From the NCBI RefSeq assembly GCF_022605165.1, contig NC_063068.1:2790001-2854000 (forward strand): DNA of 64,000 bases. The letters run 5' to 3'. The position numbers and the translations under genes are program-made. Each line of letters starts with the position of its first letter. Position 1 is the first letter of the stretch. This document shows positions 6,788-23,041 of the stretch, one piece after another. The notes below the pieces were generated by a model. That model was not told the DNA's origin and did no database searches. It saw only the letters and a list, made by a program, of their open reading frames with translations. This stretch comes from Purpureocillium takamizusanense (taxonomy: Eukaryota > Ascomycota > Sordariomycetes > Hypocreales > Ophiocordycipitaceae).

Positions 6788-8973
6788 CTTGCCGTGGGGC
6801 CTGCGAGTCGCGGGCAAGGAGTGGTAGGATAAGACTGAAGAGCTACAGGAGCAGCTGAGATTGTCGCGATGAAGCTGTGGCGACTGGGACTGTGCAGGTC
6901 GTGCGAAGCAAGGTCGAGGAGTTGGCTGCTTCCAGAAAAAAGGGTCTTCTGGCCTGTCTGTCCTTTGAGGCGACGCGAATCTCGACTTTGCGCCGCATGC
7001 GTGGTGGGGCTCGACATTAAAAGGGACCTGGAGTGGGTGGTGGAAGCCACAGCCACAGCGAGCGGCCAATTGCGCGGCCTCCTGCCGGGAGTGCAATCCA
7101 TGGCCCGGCGCTGTCTGTCCGCACTGTGTTCGATCCCTTCCAGTACGTCAGTAGTCAGTGGAGGACACTGAACCCAGTGTCGCCACTTTTCATATCTACC
7201 TTACCTGGCCTGGCCTCGCCCTGGGACGAGAGCAGGTGCAGTTCATGTATGTACCCAGTAATGAGGAAGGCTCGATCGATCATCAATTGCTTGCAGAGGT
7301 AGGGACTTGCCGCCTAGCTCTAGGTCGCTCGCTAGGTAAGTACTAAGTGAGACTCGATCATCGTCAGCCGCTTTCGGAACCCAGTCCTTCGCGGGACCTG
7401 TCGGCAACCCGCGCGACATCCGAGACACCTTTTTACCCAAAGCCGCAATTACAGACACAGTGTTGGTCTCTGCTGAGTGCGCCACTCGGCCGTTCCGCTG
7501 TGCCGTGCGTTGCGTCTCAAGGCAATTAATAAGTTAGTACGACGTACGTACGAGTGCCTGCCCGATCTTCAGGGGAGCCAAAGTCAAACTACTAACGTTA
7601 TACACTACCTACTAATACAGTAGTACTCTGTATAAGGAGGTACCAGTATATAATAGTGGCCTGGGTGTTAGCGCGCGACTCGGCTCCACCTGTGCCTCGT
7701 CTACCACACAGTCCCAGGATGCCATGCCAGGCTTGCCAGGCTTTGTTCCACTGTCCTGGGCTGCGCTGTAACTATTGGTGTGGCCCCTGTCCTGGCTTGG
7801 GCTGCGCCAATGGATGGTTTGCTGCTCTACCTTACCAGAACCTTTCCCAGCCGCTTCCACAAAGTACACCAGCTGCCAAACCCGCCCCCAGGTGGTCAGT
7901 CGGTTTGGGCTTTGTCAACGAATACGACAGGCTGTGAATTATTATACTACCTAGGTCCCACGTACGGTATAAAGGATAAGCTAAATATAAAGAAGCTTTT
8001 TAATTAGACCTCCGGGGTGAGCGGCAGAGCAAACCGTATTTGGACAACGCTGTACAGTATAGAAGCTTCTACGAAGTAGTCGACGTAGATCCAGCAGCTA
8101 TCCGTGACAAAAGGTGTCAGTCAGATGCGGATGTATGGTTTAGCTCTTTATATGAGAAGTCCTCGATGCCTCTATTTTCATTGCAGGCCGCTGAAGAGCA
8201 TTGCGGAAGGTCAGTCGGTGTGTGCTGTTCCTGTTCAACGTCATGTGCTTTGCATTCATCATCATTCTCTCGACCGACACTGCCAGAAGCTCCGTGCCAC
8301 TGCTCAATCTCGTACGTCATTGCCTCCATCCCTACCGTGTCAATATGGCCACTGTCTCGAAGCCATGTAATAGGTAGTCTCCGTAAAGGGCCTCCTCTGA
8401 AATAGGTACGGAGCCCCAGCAGGTACTCAATTCAAATTACAACATGCTTTGTCCTGTGTAATACTAAGGCCCTGACTGCGCTTCCTTGGCACTGCTGTAA
8501 AGGTTGCAAGCTCACAAAGAGCTGGATGGCGACCTTCCTCCCGTACTTCGTAGCTGCTTGTCTAGGTCCAGGGGACCGATGGAACGGCGCCACCACTGGC
8601 GTAGTCGCATGTACCCCGTACCTCTCGTATCACCGAAGCCCAAGCGATCGGCTCCCTGAGACTATTGACACCAACCTTAGCAGACGGTTGCTCGCTACTC
8701 CGTGCAGTGGGGACGGCAGGCGCGCCCGGCTTGATTACTCTCCGTCTTTCCCTCCTGCCTCTCTTGCTTGCCTACCCTAGTGGTCTTTCACCTCTCCCAG
8801 CGTCAGTGGCACTGGTTGGGTGTCTCTGGTTACCTACAACAGCGCCAACGGCTCATCACTCCGCTTCTTTGGCTTGCCCTCTTCGCGTGCTCGGTTCGAT
8901 CATGGCACATCTTGCGAGAAATCGGGTCTTTCATCGCCATAGTAGCTTTCTAACCATCGCGCCTTGAGCCGTC
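6788..8973. other. 2.2 kb intergenic region, partly AT-rich
   Basis: This holds the Rer1 promoter on the left and the promoter of the GATA-HEAT gene on the right. I recognise no gene. The stretch from about 7920 to 8420 is visibly richer in A/T than its surroundings (for example around 7970-8010) and could be an eroded insertion. A minus-strand open frame of about 70 codons at 8117-8329 has no recognisable motif. TAC/GTA-rich motif runs occur at 7530-7650. Confidence 0.5.
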
Positions 8974-10507
8974 ATGTCGGAGATCGGACCACCCTTCCCG
9001 CCGGTGAGTGCCAAATCTATGCCGGGTCGGGGGCCCCGACTGAACTAACACGAACTCTTAGCAGCTTGTTTGCGTCAACTGCCGCTCTACTGCAACGCCT
9101 CTCTGGAGAAAGGACGACAAGGACAGGCTTCTTTGCAATGCCTGTGGCCTGTACGCAAAGCTTCACGGCTGCCCCCGTCCGCTGACGTCCAAGAGAGGGA
9201 GCACAGCATCGGCAGTAGACGCAGCATCTGGAGATGACCCCGTTGTAATGTCAACCAGACCAGAGACAAGTCCGCACCAGGACCCTTCTCAACCTCAGGA
9301 CAGTGTAGTCCGCCCCGAAATCCGCCTCCTCGACGGCCTAGAGCTCATTGACTGGGCAGCGCTGCAGACCGCCTACGGCGCGGCCACCCCAGTACCTACC
9401 TGGCTCCAGGAGCTTCAATATTCAGGCCCCGCTGGCGGCAGACGTGCTGCCGACGCCCTGACTCAACTTTCCAAACATCTCGTCCACCAGGGATCTCGGT
9501 GGTCAGCAACTCCACATGCAGTTCCCTTTCTTATAAAGCTCCTGGCCGACACGCGCACCCCAGATCGTCACAAGATAATCAGTCTTCTCATCCGCCTCGC
9601 CGTTGGTAACCCGGATGACTGGCAGCCCGAGAACGTCGACATCAAGGTCTGGCGGAGCAAATGTGGCGACGAACCGGACTTTGGATTACAGTCGTACGAT
9701 GCAGTGCAAAGGGGCGTTCCTGTCCTACAGACCTTGACACTGAACGATCCGGTTCCGACAGTACAAGCCATTTCAGCTCATGCGTTGGCGTGGTTTCCGG
9801 AAGCTGCCGAAAATGGGCCTGAAAACACTCTAACCCTGCTGTGGTCAGTGGTGGATGGACGAACCGGATATGCATGGGCTCAGGCCTCCGCTGTGTTAGC
9901 TATAGGCCTGTTGACGGCCGGCATAACTGCACTCGGCTCATCCGGAGGGCAAGCGACAAACCACGACAAGCAGACAATCACCCGTTTGCGTAGCCTATTT
10001 TGCAAGCGGCCGGCTTCTCATCTGGTGAAGTGGGCAGCCGCCAAAGTGATGCTGAACCTCGGCGTGGAAGACCCCGAAGCTATTCTGACCGTTGCCAGTG
10101 CGACTGTTGATCATCAGATGCACGGCGGTTGGCGGCTGATCGTGCCAGTCGGTAATGATATTGCAGGAGTCTCTGGAGACACAATTTCGGACTTTAGGGT
10201 TCGCAAAACTACTGACGCTACATCATCAACGGCTGTCACTGCCCTGCTTGACGCACTCGCCAAAGCCTCAGGCGATGCGGCATCTTCGCTATCGTATGAG
10301 ATCATGTGCATGGTGTTTCCTGCGAAGCTGGAGACGTTGCCGGATATTGGCCAACTGCAAGAGAAACAGCAGCAATTTGTACGATCTCTGGCAAGCCTCC
10401 GTGAGTCGATCTGGACCGATGCCCAACTTGGTATACTCTGCACGAAGTACGGACTGCCGGGAGATCGTGGATCCATGAAGAACTACACAGAGGCAGCTGC
10501 AACTTAG
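8974..10507 (+). CDS. GATA-type zinc finger fused to a bacterial-type HEAT-repeat domain
   Basis: Exons 8974-9003 and 9065-10507 encode 490 residues. The 61-nt intron (GTGAGT...TTAGCAG) joins [10 protein letters not shown] to LVCVNC; an acceptor 3 nt earlier would add one Gln. Residues 13-37 form a complete type IV GATA finger, Cx2Cx17Cx2C, with TPLWRK and [13 protein letters not shown], followed by RPLTSKR. The frame runs on without a stop through a Ser/Asp-rich linker (about 55-100) into a roughly 390-residue helical region that opens [20 protein letters not shown] and continues [20 protein letters not shown] and [12 protein letters not shown]. As I recall the family, this opening is typical of HEAT-repeat proteins of actinobacteria. 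GATA fingers bind WGATAR DNA, so a nuclear role is likely; what the HEAT part contacts is unknown. The downstream neighbour, catalase, is convergent. Confidence 0.8.
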
Positions 10508-10840: not shown

Positions 10841-13363
10841 TTAGGCACCTGCATCTAACGGGAAACGGTCCGTAAACTTGAACACAGCAAGGCCATCCCT
10901 GAAGTCCTTGACCACGGAGTCGACATCACTGGCCGCAAATACTCCTGGGCCATCTTGGACGCCAGCCGCCGCGCGGGCGTTGCCCGTGGAGCCAAGAAAG
11001 CCGACGGGCTTGCCCCAATTGTAGGCGTCTCTCAGAATCTGAGCTGGCCGACCGGGTGGGAACAGTGTGGTCTTGTTGGCCGCTTCAAACAGGGCACCGC
11101 CGCTTGAGGCCACTATGATGCCATCGAAACCAATGGCATCGGCGGCTGAGTAGGTTATGTCGACACCCTCGGCGAGGGACTCACCCACAGTGATGACCTT
11201 GACCCTGTCGGCCTGAAAGGCGCTTTTGAGTGAGCCGGCTTGATCCATGGACTCCTTGACGGCGGTTGAGGCGAGGACGCCGACCCGCAGGGTTGCGATG
11301 GTGGGCAGTTTCTGGCCGAAGATGGAAATGCCCTTGGTCGTGTTGCTATGGTAGTAGCGGTCGTCTTCAGCGGGCGCCTCCAGGCCGAGAGCCTTGCCCA
11401 CGCGCACAGCGATGTCGTGGCTGATCTTATTGAGCTGGAATAAGACGTTCTTTTGTACCGATGGCTGCACCTGGCTGGTCTCAAAGCGGATGGCATCGAT
11501 GAGGAACTGCTGCTCGACCTTGGTCAGGGAGTTGTAGAAGAGTCGCGGCTGGCTCCAGTGGTCGGCAAAGGTCGGACTGCGGCGGCGCACCAGCGGGCCG
11601 TCGGCCTTGCGGTTGGGCGCGGTGAAGAACCCTTTGCCGTTGGTCTGGTTAGCCTGCATGGGGAAGCCCTTGTTGAGGGTGTTTGGACTGTCTGTATTAA
11701 GGCATTAGACGATGCGGTTTTTTCGTAAGACAGGTAGGCTGAAGACCCACAAGGTGCCATATTCTTGGGAATCATGTTCTGCGCGGCGCCATCGCGATTA
11801 TTGTTGTGGACTTTGCCAATGGGCCGGTTGATGGGCAACTGCTCAAAGTTGGGGCCGCCGTGGCGGTTAATTTGAGTATCGAGGTATGAGAAAATCCGCC
11901 CCTGTAGCAGGGGGTCCTCGGTGAAGTCGACACCGCGGACGATGTGGCCAGGTTGGAACTAATACCTTGTCAATACAAGGGTTCTCCAGGCCTCAAGCGG
12001 TTGAGATACCGACCATGGCTTGCTCCGTTTCAGCAAAGTAGTTGACGGGATTGGCGTCTAGCCGCATCACGCCCACGGGGCGGAGAGGAGCGAGTTCCTC
12101 AGGGATGATCTTGGTTGGGTCCATGACGTCGAAGCCAAAGCTGAGCGCCTGGTCCTCCTCGATGACCTGGATATTGAGCTCCCACTCGGGGTAGTTGCCC
12201 GACTCGATGGCATCAAAAAGATCCTGACGATGAAAGTCGGCGTTCTTGCCTGCGACGTGCTGGGCCTCGTCCCAGACTAGACTGGCCTTGCCTTGCTTTG
12301 TTTTCCAGTGCCACTTGACCAGTTTGGTTTGGCCGTCGTTGGTGACGAAGCGGAAGGCGTGGACACCAAAGCCGTCCTGGTCACAGTCTCAGTACAATAG
12401 CCTGGCCATGATATGGTTACAGGAACGAGAGAGGGGGGGGGGGGGGGGGGGGGGGAAGCTGGGCAAATTCGCACCATATGTCTAAAGCTTCGCGGGATGC
12501 CATTGCCCGCCATGGCCCAGAAGAGTGTATGCAGCGTCGACGTCTGCTGGCTGAAGAAGTCCCAGGCACTGTCGTGCGCCGTCGCGGCTTGGGGAATTTC
12601 ATTGTCAGACCGGGGCTTGACGGCGTGGATCAGATCCGGGAAATGGATGGCGTCCTGAATGAAGAAGACGGGAATGTTGTTGCCGACAATGTCAAAGTTG
12701 CCTTCGTCGGTGAAGCTGCCGTCCGTGTCAACACACTGGGAATGTTGCGCGCCCATCCCGCCCGAAACGACATGGTTGGGTGGGAGACTTACAGCCTGAC
12801 AGCAAAGCCGTGGACGTCGCGTGCCGTGTCTGCGCTGCCGCGGGAGCCAGCGACGGTGGAAAAGCGCACGAACGTGGGTGTCTTCTTGTCCTTGGCCCCC
12901 AAAAAGGACGCGGCCGTGATGTTACTGTAATCGCCGTAGCTGGTGAAGGTGCCGTATGCACCGGCTCCGCGAGCATGGACAGCCCTTTCAGGCACCTGCG
13001 TAGGGGGCTCTTGTTAGCATCTAGCCCCCCCCCCCAAGCTTCCGGTATGCCCGCTCCACGGCTGAATCTTCTCCGACTTACTCGTTCGTGATCAAAGCGC
13101 GTAATCTTTTGCCGGAAGATGAAGTCTTCCAAAAGAGTCGGCCCTCGTTCGCCGGCTTTCAGGCTGTCCTGGTCCGCGATGGGTCCGCCGACGTCCGACG
13201 TCAGATAGCCTTGGCTGTCATCGACGTCGTACTGGGCGACGTGGTCGCGAGACGTGACGCCATCAGCTCTGGGAGCAAGTCGTGACGGGTCCGCGAAGGG
13301 ACACTGGGCAAAAGCGAGGCCAGCCCCGACCAGAGAGACGGCGAGAAGGTTCAGATACTTCAT
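10841..13363 (-). CDS. Secreted large-subunit catalase
   Basis: Six minus-strand exons (13363-13082, 12995-12793, 12715-12475, 12376-12014, 11958-11751, 11691-10841) encode 715 residues, the normal size of this class. The signal peptide is [19 protein letters not shown]. The catalase core shows [10 protein letters not shown] with distal His101, [12 protein letters not shown] with the catalytic Asn at 174/175, and RIFSYLDTQ with Tyr388 as proximal haem ligand (R384-x3-Y388). The last roughly 150 residues are the flavodoxin/DJ-1-like domain ([24 protein letters not shown]) that separates large from small catalases. It breaks down hydrogen peroxide outside the cell or in the wall, commonly against host or competitor oxidants. 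Intron 3 contains 23 consecutive G on the plus strand, and intron 4 has a weak GTCGGT donor. The start is ATG 13363, at the signal peptide. Confidence 0.95.
12433..12455. repeat. Homopolymer of 23 G inside catalase intron 3
   Basis: An unbroken run of G on the plus strand (C in the transcript) lies in the 98-nt intron 12377-12474, just downstream of its 5' splice site. The exact length is likely to vary between reads and strains. Confidence 0.9.
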
Positions 13364-21927: not shown

Positions 21928-22692
21928 TCAATCCGAATGGGCTACCAACGACTCCAGGGCTTGAGCTCCGAGGCTTTCCAGCCAGAATGTCACATCAGCT
22001 GCACCGGTCCGTCGCGCTGCGTCAAGGGGCGTGAGTTTCTCCCAAGGCGGGACAAAGTTGACCGCTTCTGCCCCTCCGTGTGAATGGAGGTACTGGGCCG
22101 TCTTGAGCTGACCTCCGTGGCACGCGTTCCATAGCGCGCAGTTGATGTCCTCTTGTGACGGTCGGCCCGCCGGCGACCCCGGGACCGCTTCCTCCACACG
22201 GTCCTGCAAGCCCAGAGTTGCGGCGTCCTGCAGCGTGACCCGGGCGCCGCGCTCGACAAGCCTGTGCGCCGTCTTGAGCTGCATGAACGCCCGCGCATCC
22301 GCCAGAGGCGTCTCGGCAATGACGCCGCCCGGAGCATCGATGTCCGCTCCAGCGTCCAGCAATGTATCGAGGAGCGCCACGTCGTCGTTGCTCGCGGCCC
22401 AATGAAGGGGGGTCTCGGAATGGGCATCGCCGATGAAGGGTGCGTTCACGTCTGCACCGGCTGCGATGAGCGCCCGAGCCGTGTCGGGTGCTTGGGGTAG
22501 ATACCCTGGCCAGTCGGCAAGGATGTGAAGAAGGGTACGGGCCTCAGTTGGGGAGCCGACATGAACGGATGCGAGCGCTGGATCCGCAGTGAGGCAGGCT
22601 GTGAGAGCATCGACATCGCCAGCGCGAAGGGCGGCGATGGCAGGCGCCACTCTTTTGTCCTCCTTGTCGACGAAGATGCTTGCGTTCGTCAT
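21928..22692 (-). CDS. Ankyrin-repeat protein of bacterial style
   Basis: One uninterrupted minus-strand exon encodes 254 residues from ATG 22692 (MTNASIF). Earlier in-frame ATGs would add an unlikely low-complexity leader. At least five ankyrin-like units are visible: IAALRAGDVDALTACLTADP, TARALIAAGADVNAPF, ETPLHWAASNDDVALLDTLL, AHRLVERGARVTLQDAATLG and LTPLDAARRTGAADVTFWL. In DINCALWNACHGGQLKTAQY the cadence (units with LHWAASNDDV, APGGVIAETPLADA and ACHGGQ) is what I know from bacterial ankyrin proteins rather than from eukaryotic scaffolds. It has no signal peptide or membrane segment, so it is probably cytosolic and protein-binding. The partner is unknown. Lack of introns and the sequence style suggest transfer from bacteria. 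Confidence 0.8.
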   Translation of the reverse strand: MTNASIFVDKEDKRVAPAIAALRAGDVDALTACLTADPALASVHVGSPTEARTLLHILADWPGYLPQAPDTARALIAAGADVNAPFIGDAHSETPLHWAASNDDVALLDTLLDAGADIDAPGGVIAETPLADARAFMQLKTAHRLVERGARVTLQDAATLGLQDRVEEAVPGSPAGRPSQEDINCALWNACHGGQLKTAQYLHSHGGAEAVNFVPPWEKLTPLDAARRTGAADVTFWLESLGAQALESLVAHSD

Positions 22693-23041
22693 GCTGTCGA
22701 TCCTCGAAGGGGGGCGATAAGATGGCAGCAGCAGAAGCAGGAGGTCGTCCGTTGACGTTGACAGCACGGCGCTGACAGGAAAGGCCAGGCATGCAACGTG
22801 AACCCGACAGGCAGTCACAAGTTCACAACGCGACACCCCGCTGCTGCGCCTTCCTCGTGTCTCGCACTCCCAGATGCAAGGCATCCGAGAACGCGGCCCC
22901 ACCTCGGTCCGGTGTGCTCCCCACGAACGGTCCGCGCCGAGCCTCCGGCGGACCTCTCACGTTTGTTCATTCGCTCGAGCTAGAAGCGTGCCATCTAAAG
23001 CACAGCAAGTTAAGGAACCCTAAATCTACGTTGTCGTCATG
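22693..23041. other. Spacer between ankyrin and GNAT-like genes
   Basis: This should include the ankyrin gene promoter and the 3' UTR of the GNAT-like gene, both on the minus strand. Nothing else is seen. Confidence 0.55.

Follow-up and report, generated by a model that had tools for sequence, protein, structure and literature searches.

The window analysed here is a 64,000-nucleotide stretch from the insect-killing fungus Purpureocillium takamizusanense, whose genome assembly (G000) comprises 35.6 Mb in 14 contigs. The published assembly is given as 35.6 Mb in 14 scaffolds, and its annotation drew on RNA-seq and on P. lilacinum proteins (PMC9302088). On the forward strand, the window carries a gene in which a GATA-type zinc finger, a linker and a HEAT-repeat part follow one another. 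Exon 1 (8974..9003) is in frame with exon 2, and all of residues 1–13 (13/13) agree with the models of P. lilacinum and P. lavendulum. The exons are separated by a 58-nt intron of the form GTGAGT...CTAAC...TAG (9004..9061), and exon 2 (9062..10507, including the stop codon) is a 481-codon open frame that contains the finger, the linker and the HEAT part. The spliced frame, 8974–9003 joined to 9062–10507, is free of internal stops on translation and gives a product identical to the public protein JDV02_000898 (P0001, 491 aa), which the intron also fits. Thus the claim of a sequence-only reading that finger and HEAT part form one frame with one small intron is borne out. That reading placed the intron at 9004–9064; its start stands, whereas its end differs from the 9061 of the public protein. 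The 3’ end is ambiguous by 3 nt (TAGCAG), and the alternative is also in frame, with a difference of one Gln.

The joint between finger and HEAT part lies inside the single 481-codon exon, so the fusion is independent of the intron prediction, and a reading as two genes is ruled out. Upstream of 9062, the TAG that terminates the intron stops the frame, and the first methionine of exon 2 comes after the finger, indicating that the finger is made from the spliced form only. We also considered a finger-less isoform starting at this methionine (M73) and dropped it, as P. lilacinum P0002 and P. lavendulum P0003 have no Met there. Both P. lilacinum models (P0002 and P0004) lack 27 residues of the HEAT part, a gap that deletes the conserved ATPHAVPFL block. 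When their alignment is read against the window sequence, an in-frame GT-AG stretch of 81 nt (9502..9582, forward strand) appears whose splicing would give exactly this gap; the stretch is coding in the window and in the P. lavendulum model. On the alignment, either the P. lilacinum models would be wrong or the stretch would be an optional intron.

The gene sits on a 6.1-Mb contig, with Paf1 as one neighbour and an interrupted catalase as the other. The adjoining catalase gene (PF00199, PF06628 and PF18011; 10841–13372, minus strand) is large and split into several pieces, two of which are separated by a long G run near 12434. Further along are a HET-domain (heterokaryon incompatibility) protein (PF06985; 18949–20967, minus strand) and, near it, an ankyrin-repeat gene (21928–22956). 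Just upstream of the fusion gene, a 21-codon uORF (8902–8967) stops 6 bases short of the start codon (8974) and could damp translation if transcribed. The 1000 bases upstream of the gene contain no WGATAR site. Third-position GC is 0.571, compared with 0.677–0.813 in nine other ORFs of the window, which were picked from the ORF list and run from stop to stop. This low value may suggest low expression or an unusual history, and no trace of a high-GC donor is left in it.

We compared each segment of the protein with its counterparts in P. lilacinum (P0002), P. lavendulum and the more distant fused protein P0005. Identity to the window protein was 33/37, 34/37 and 22/37 in the finger, 29/47, 21/45 and 8/47 in the linker, and 291/367, 283/394 and 152/390 in the HEAT part, respectively. 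Judged by these figures, which are protein identities and not dN/dS, the finger and the HEAT part are both better kept than the linker, which would be a sign of use.

The HEAT part and its bacterial relatives

Searches, alignment and an AlphaFold2 model together define the HEAT part (9323..10504, forward strand) as coextensive with a bacterial protein family; it starts and ends where the bacterial proteins start and end. Four family signatures can be recognised, all on the forward strand: W108 ... AYGxAxxVP122 (9353..9397), in columns at least 85% conserved among 81 non-fungal sequences; HQGxRWxATPxAVPFL at residues 152–167 (9485..9532), defined by column conservation, where position 157 is Trp in fungi and mostly Tyr in the bacterial family; YDAV at residues 222–225 (9695..9706), in which Y, A and V reach at least 85% conservation; and LAWFPE at residues 252–257 (9785..9802), whose W and F do not vary among 66 aligned sequences. 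Across the family, the signatures read W-x-AYGxAxxVP, HQGxR[YW]xATP, YxAV and LxWFPE. Over the 53 columns that reach the 85% level in the 81 non-fungal rows, the window protein is identical at 41 and P0005 at 40. The 12 at which the window protein differs include His113 to Thr, Arg139 to Ala and Gly375 to Asn. The motifs singled out in the sequence-only reading, LAVGNPDDW among them, are present and fall within stretches that align with the bacterial proteins.

The Pfam match of the HEAT part is weak (PF13646, below cut-off). The AlphaFold2 model, a check which that reading had proposed for the C-terminal part, gave an alpha-solenoid with stacked helices over the whole domain. Foldseek found no match to this model in PDB or BFVD at E up to 0.001, and VIA-align matched it with generic solenoids only. 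A HEAT profile had 43 matches in PDB, mostly designed repeat proteins, and a weak match over the repeats to a natural eukaryotic HEAT chain, the 26S proteasome subunit 8amz_N (E 8.3e-4). The HEAT part is acidic. Because of this acidity and the solenoid fold of the model, nucleic-acid sensing by this part, as suggested earlier, is unlikely.

The best named non-fused relative is a Thermomonospora protein (P0007), with 30% identity over 98–99% of the HEAT part. A GTDB locus search, resting on a single peptide pattern, gave 79 loci, 76 from Actinomycetota and one each from Bacteroidota, Pseudomonadota and Planctomycetota. Relatives on plasmids came to 30 records, 26 of them from Streptomyces, and none covers 80% of the query; the family thus sits on large Streptomyces plasmids as well as on actinobacterial chromosomes. 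A viral or phage origin was considered and rejected, as no relative was found in phages, or in viral contigs searched with one peptide pattern. We also looked for neighbouring genes as a clue to function. No neighbour was constant in the 79 GTDB loci, where the commonest neighbour families occur in 7 (a survey by home-made ORF picking that recovered the HEAT ORF in 71/79), or in six chosen plasmid regions (five from Streptomyces, one from Bernardetia), and this approach was dropped. NCBIfam and literature searches found no curated NCBIfam name or assigned function for the bacterial family.

Fused relatives were found in few fungi. The order finger, linker, HEAT part recurs in P. lilacinum (74% identity), in P. 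lavendulum (71%) and in P0005 (37% over 98% of the query), which argues that the observed order is not due to chance. With the HEAT part as query, 11 proteins matched: P0001–P0004 from the three Purpureocillium species, the fused P0005, a related 264-aa fragment (P0006) and five further HEAT proteins, of which the named ones are bacterial. Neither a finger-less fungal relative nor a named eukaryotic protein outside Purpureocillium was recognised in this search; the protein searches scored the ~8000 candidates sharing most words, so that remote fungal relatives may be missed. A nine-sequence profile extended the set to 239 proteins, and among the best 120, most of them without a name, the 5 with a GATA domain are all fusions. 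When the full fusion was searched against the P. takamizusanense genome, other places matched by the finger alone (query residues 1–58). The public names reflect one half each: the P. lilacinum protein is called GATA zinc finger domain-containing and the P. lavendulum protein PBS lyase HEAT domain-containing. The sequence-only reading had predicted that the fused form would be limited to some fungi and, in the searches made, it is limited to Purpureocillium and P0005.

To place the fungal proteins, we built an unrooted tree of 86 rows, 5 fungal or fungal-like and 81 others. The latter comprise 49 of the 79 GTDB loci, each represented by one ORF of 330–520 aa, and 32 proteins picked from search matches; two rows, L031 and P0054, represent almost identical proteins. 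The fungal rows form one clade with support of 100/100, whose stem measures 0.8 changes per column, and in the free tree this clade joins rows from Streptosporangiaceae, Thermomonosporaceae and Streptomyces at 97/92. AU tests did not reject placement of the fungi beside a multi-phylum group (p 0.399) or next to the Micromonosporaceae group (p 0.114). Two longer HEAT proteins tried as outgroups could not root the tree, as they had long branches and did not group. The bacterial kinship of the HEAT part is firm. As to the donor phylum, the tree leans towards Actinomycetota. The distribution of the family suggests a transfer from bacterium to fungus, and both the length of the fungal stem and the degree to which P0005 has diverged suggest that it happened long ago. 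Of the bacterial origin proposed at the outset, for which a profile search and phylogeny had been suggested as the check, the core holds, in that the nearest named non-fused relatives are bacterial, whereas the AU tests make the actinobacterial source probable at most.

A GATA finger without the usual basic tail

The finger (9071..9169, forward strand) has the form Cx2Cx17Cx2C, with the sequence CVNC-x17-CNAC, and scores 46.6 bits against the Pfam GATA model PF00320 (cut-off 26.8; E 2.4e-12), confirming the earlier description as a textbook fungal GATA finger. Its relatives in PDB include chains of vertebrate GATA-1/2/3/4 and of AreA, among the latter the AreA finger chain of entry 2vus. The core is intact, with four Cys, TPLWRK and LCNACGLY, and is conserved across the fused sequences; in P0005, Val replaces the Leu of the TPLWR core. 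The P. takamizusanense genome has 11 finger stretches above the PF00320 cut-off. An AreA-like stretch, L092 (G000 C4:112560-112655), holds an odd finger with an SPVWHRN core in a 205-codon open frame, and by its sequence it is possibly a decayed or diverged copy of AreA.

The linker (9182..9322, forward strand) lacks the basic tail that usually follows GATA fingers. A highly basic region belongs to the usual description of GATA factors (PMC5693882). We measured the tail as the net charge of 22 residues beginning at +14 after the last Cys and obtained −1 for the window protein, 0 for P0002, +1 for P0003 and 0 for P0005, so that the basic tail is absent in all four fusions measured. For comparison, 23 other fingers, many from animals, were measured, of which 16 have the full 36-residue tail; the remaining seven, cut by a stop or the protein end (charges 0, 2, 0, 2, 0, 0 and 5), were left out. 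Fifteen of the 16 full-length tails carry +4 to +8. In a smaller set of eight chosen fingers, which includes a truncated one with an 18-residue loop, all fall in this same range. The one exception among the 16 is the first finger of P0010, whose tail has a net charge of 0 while that of the second finger has +5. P0010 may be a parallel to the fusion finger, and indicates that the fusion is not alone in lacking such a tail. In the AlphaFold2 model, the linker region has pLDDT <50 at residues 41–73.

GATA fingers bind WGATAR. Given the absence of the basic tail in 4/4 fusion sequences, however, it is doubtful that the fusion finger would do so autonomously, and the binding assumed in the sequence-only reading is weakened to that extent. 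For the same reason, we class the product as a GATA-finger protein and not as a GATA transcription factor.

Proposed origin and role of the fusion

We hypothesize that a complete gene of a stand-alone bacterial HEAT-repeat family, probably actinobacterial, entered a fungal lineage before the split of the three Purpureocillium species and there gained an N-terminal stretch in which a flexible linker follows a GATA finger. The product would most likely be a nuclear co-regulator: its acidic alpha-solenoid would dock a partner protein, and its finger would carry this partner to GATA sites or to complexes of GATA factors. Lacking the basic tail, the finger would probably contact DNA weakly, only with help, or contact other proteins instead. 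We give this combination of bacterial capture and co-regulator role a slight preference over everything else taken together. A more specific version seems rather unlikely to us: the bacterial part would have kept its ancestral kind of partner, perhaps a bacterial or secreted protein that these fungi of soil, insects and nematodes encounter, and would relay the signal to the fungal GATA network; if true, a bacterial recognition module would have been wired into eukaryotic transcription.

Two other readings accept the fusion and differ in what the finger does. The protein could be a classical transcription factor, with a finger that binds WGATAR alone and a HEAT part for sensing a ligand or recruiting a cofactor. 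The intact and conserved finger core agrees with this, as does the first finger of P0010, which is likewise without net tail charge, but the missing basic tail (at most +1 in 4/4 fusions vs +4 to +8 in 15/16 comparison fingers) and the Val in the P0005 core speak against it, and we consider it improbable. No more probable is that the finger serves protein interaction, binding partners of GATA factors such as an NmrA-like co-repressor, so that the fusion acts as a decoy or scaffold modulating AreA or AreB. The matched chain of 2vus, which we take to be the AreA finger in complex with NmrA, the missing tail and an acidic solenoid suited to docking would all fit; on the other hand, the Purpureocillium sequences keep core residues at what are presumably the DNA-contacting positions.

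The origin of the HEAT part could also be read differently: it might be a eukaryotic HEAT protein of the ordinary sort, or belong to a family that was passed on vertically and lost elsewhere. The unrooted tree splits the fungi from all 81 other rows, so a root on that branch is possible, outgroup rooting failed, and there is the weak profile match to 8amz_N. Nevertheless, the HEAT-part query listed no named eukaryote beyond Purpureocillium, the PDB profile matches are mostly designed proteins, and the family is present in bacterial genomes and on Streptomyces plasmids, which makes this reading very improbable in our view. An artefact of gene model or assembly, or bacterial contamination, is scarcely credible. 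The 27 residues missing from the P. lilacinum models do suggest that some models of the fusion gene may be imperfect, but the fusion lies in one open exon on a 6.1-Mb contig between the Paf1 and catalase genes, and the same architecture occurs in other species with independent genomes, which rules out contamination.

Among known systems, the two sides of the fusion have separate counterparts. The finger shares the Cx2Cx17Cx2C form with L086 and L088 of the same genome, which by resemblance we take to be AreA-like and AreB-like, with 23/42 and 24/42 identical residues, respectively; in contrast to the fusion tail of −1, theirs carry +4 and +5. The HEAT part shares its signatures and its ends with the bacterial stand-alone HEAT_2 family (P0007, P0008, P0021), from which the fusion differs by its finger, absent from P0007. 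With PBS lyase HEAT proteins and NblB the likeness lies in HEAT-type repeats; at an E-value limit of 0.1, no NCBIfam model, NblB included, matched the HEAT part of the window protein, for which the PBS lyase name of the P. lavendulum protein thus finds no support, while P0007 has a weak NblB match of 22.2 bits (cut-off 300). The Imm-HEAT proteins of polymorphic toxin systems also have HEAT repeats and occur in Actinobacteria among others, as here (PMC3482391), whereas the bacterial relatives described here have no constant neighbour, toxin or other.

In the literature searched, largely by title, we found no description of a GATA-HEAT fusion, in line with the earlier statement that no described fungal regulator of such architecture was known. 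Most bacterial genes described as transferred to fungi code for enzymes; in the window gene, a foreign repeat scaffold is paired with a regulator's finger from the host. The combination has been kept in three species of one genus and in the distant relative P0005, and offers a small test system for how a captured protein gets wired into gene control and for whether a GATA finger without a basic tail still acts on DNA. A chimera of host and transferred sequence is itself of a described kind. HGT-chimeras were described in arthropods in 2026, among them a zinc-finger mosquito chimera and a one-genus shrimp chimera, and the authors expect more in fungi (PMC13389597). As in those chimeras, the window gene joins parts of different descent, one from the host and one, on our reading, horizontally descended, in one open frame; in contrast to the arthropod cases, the host is an ascomycete, its contribution is a GATA finger, a whole HEAT protein makes up the foreign part, and the chimera is known from sequence.
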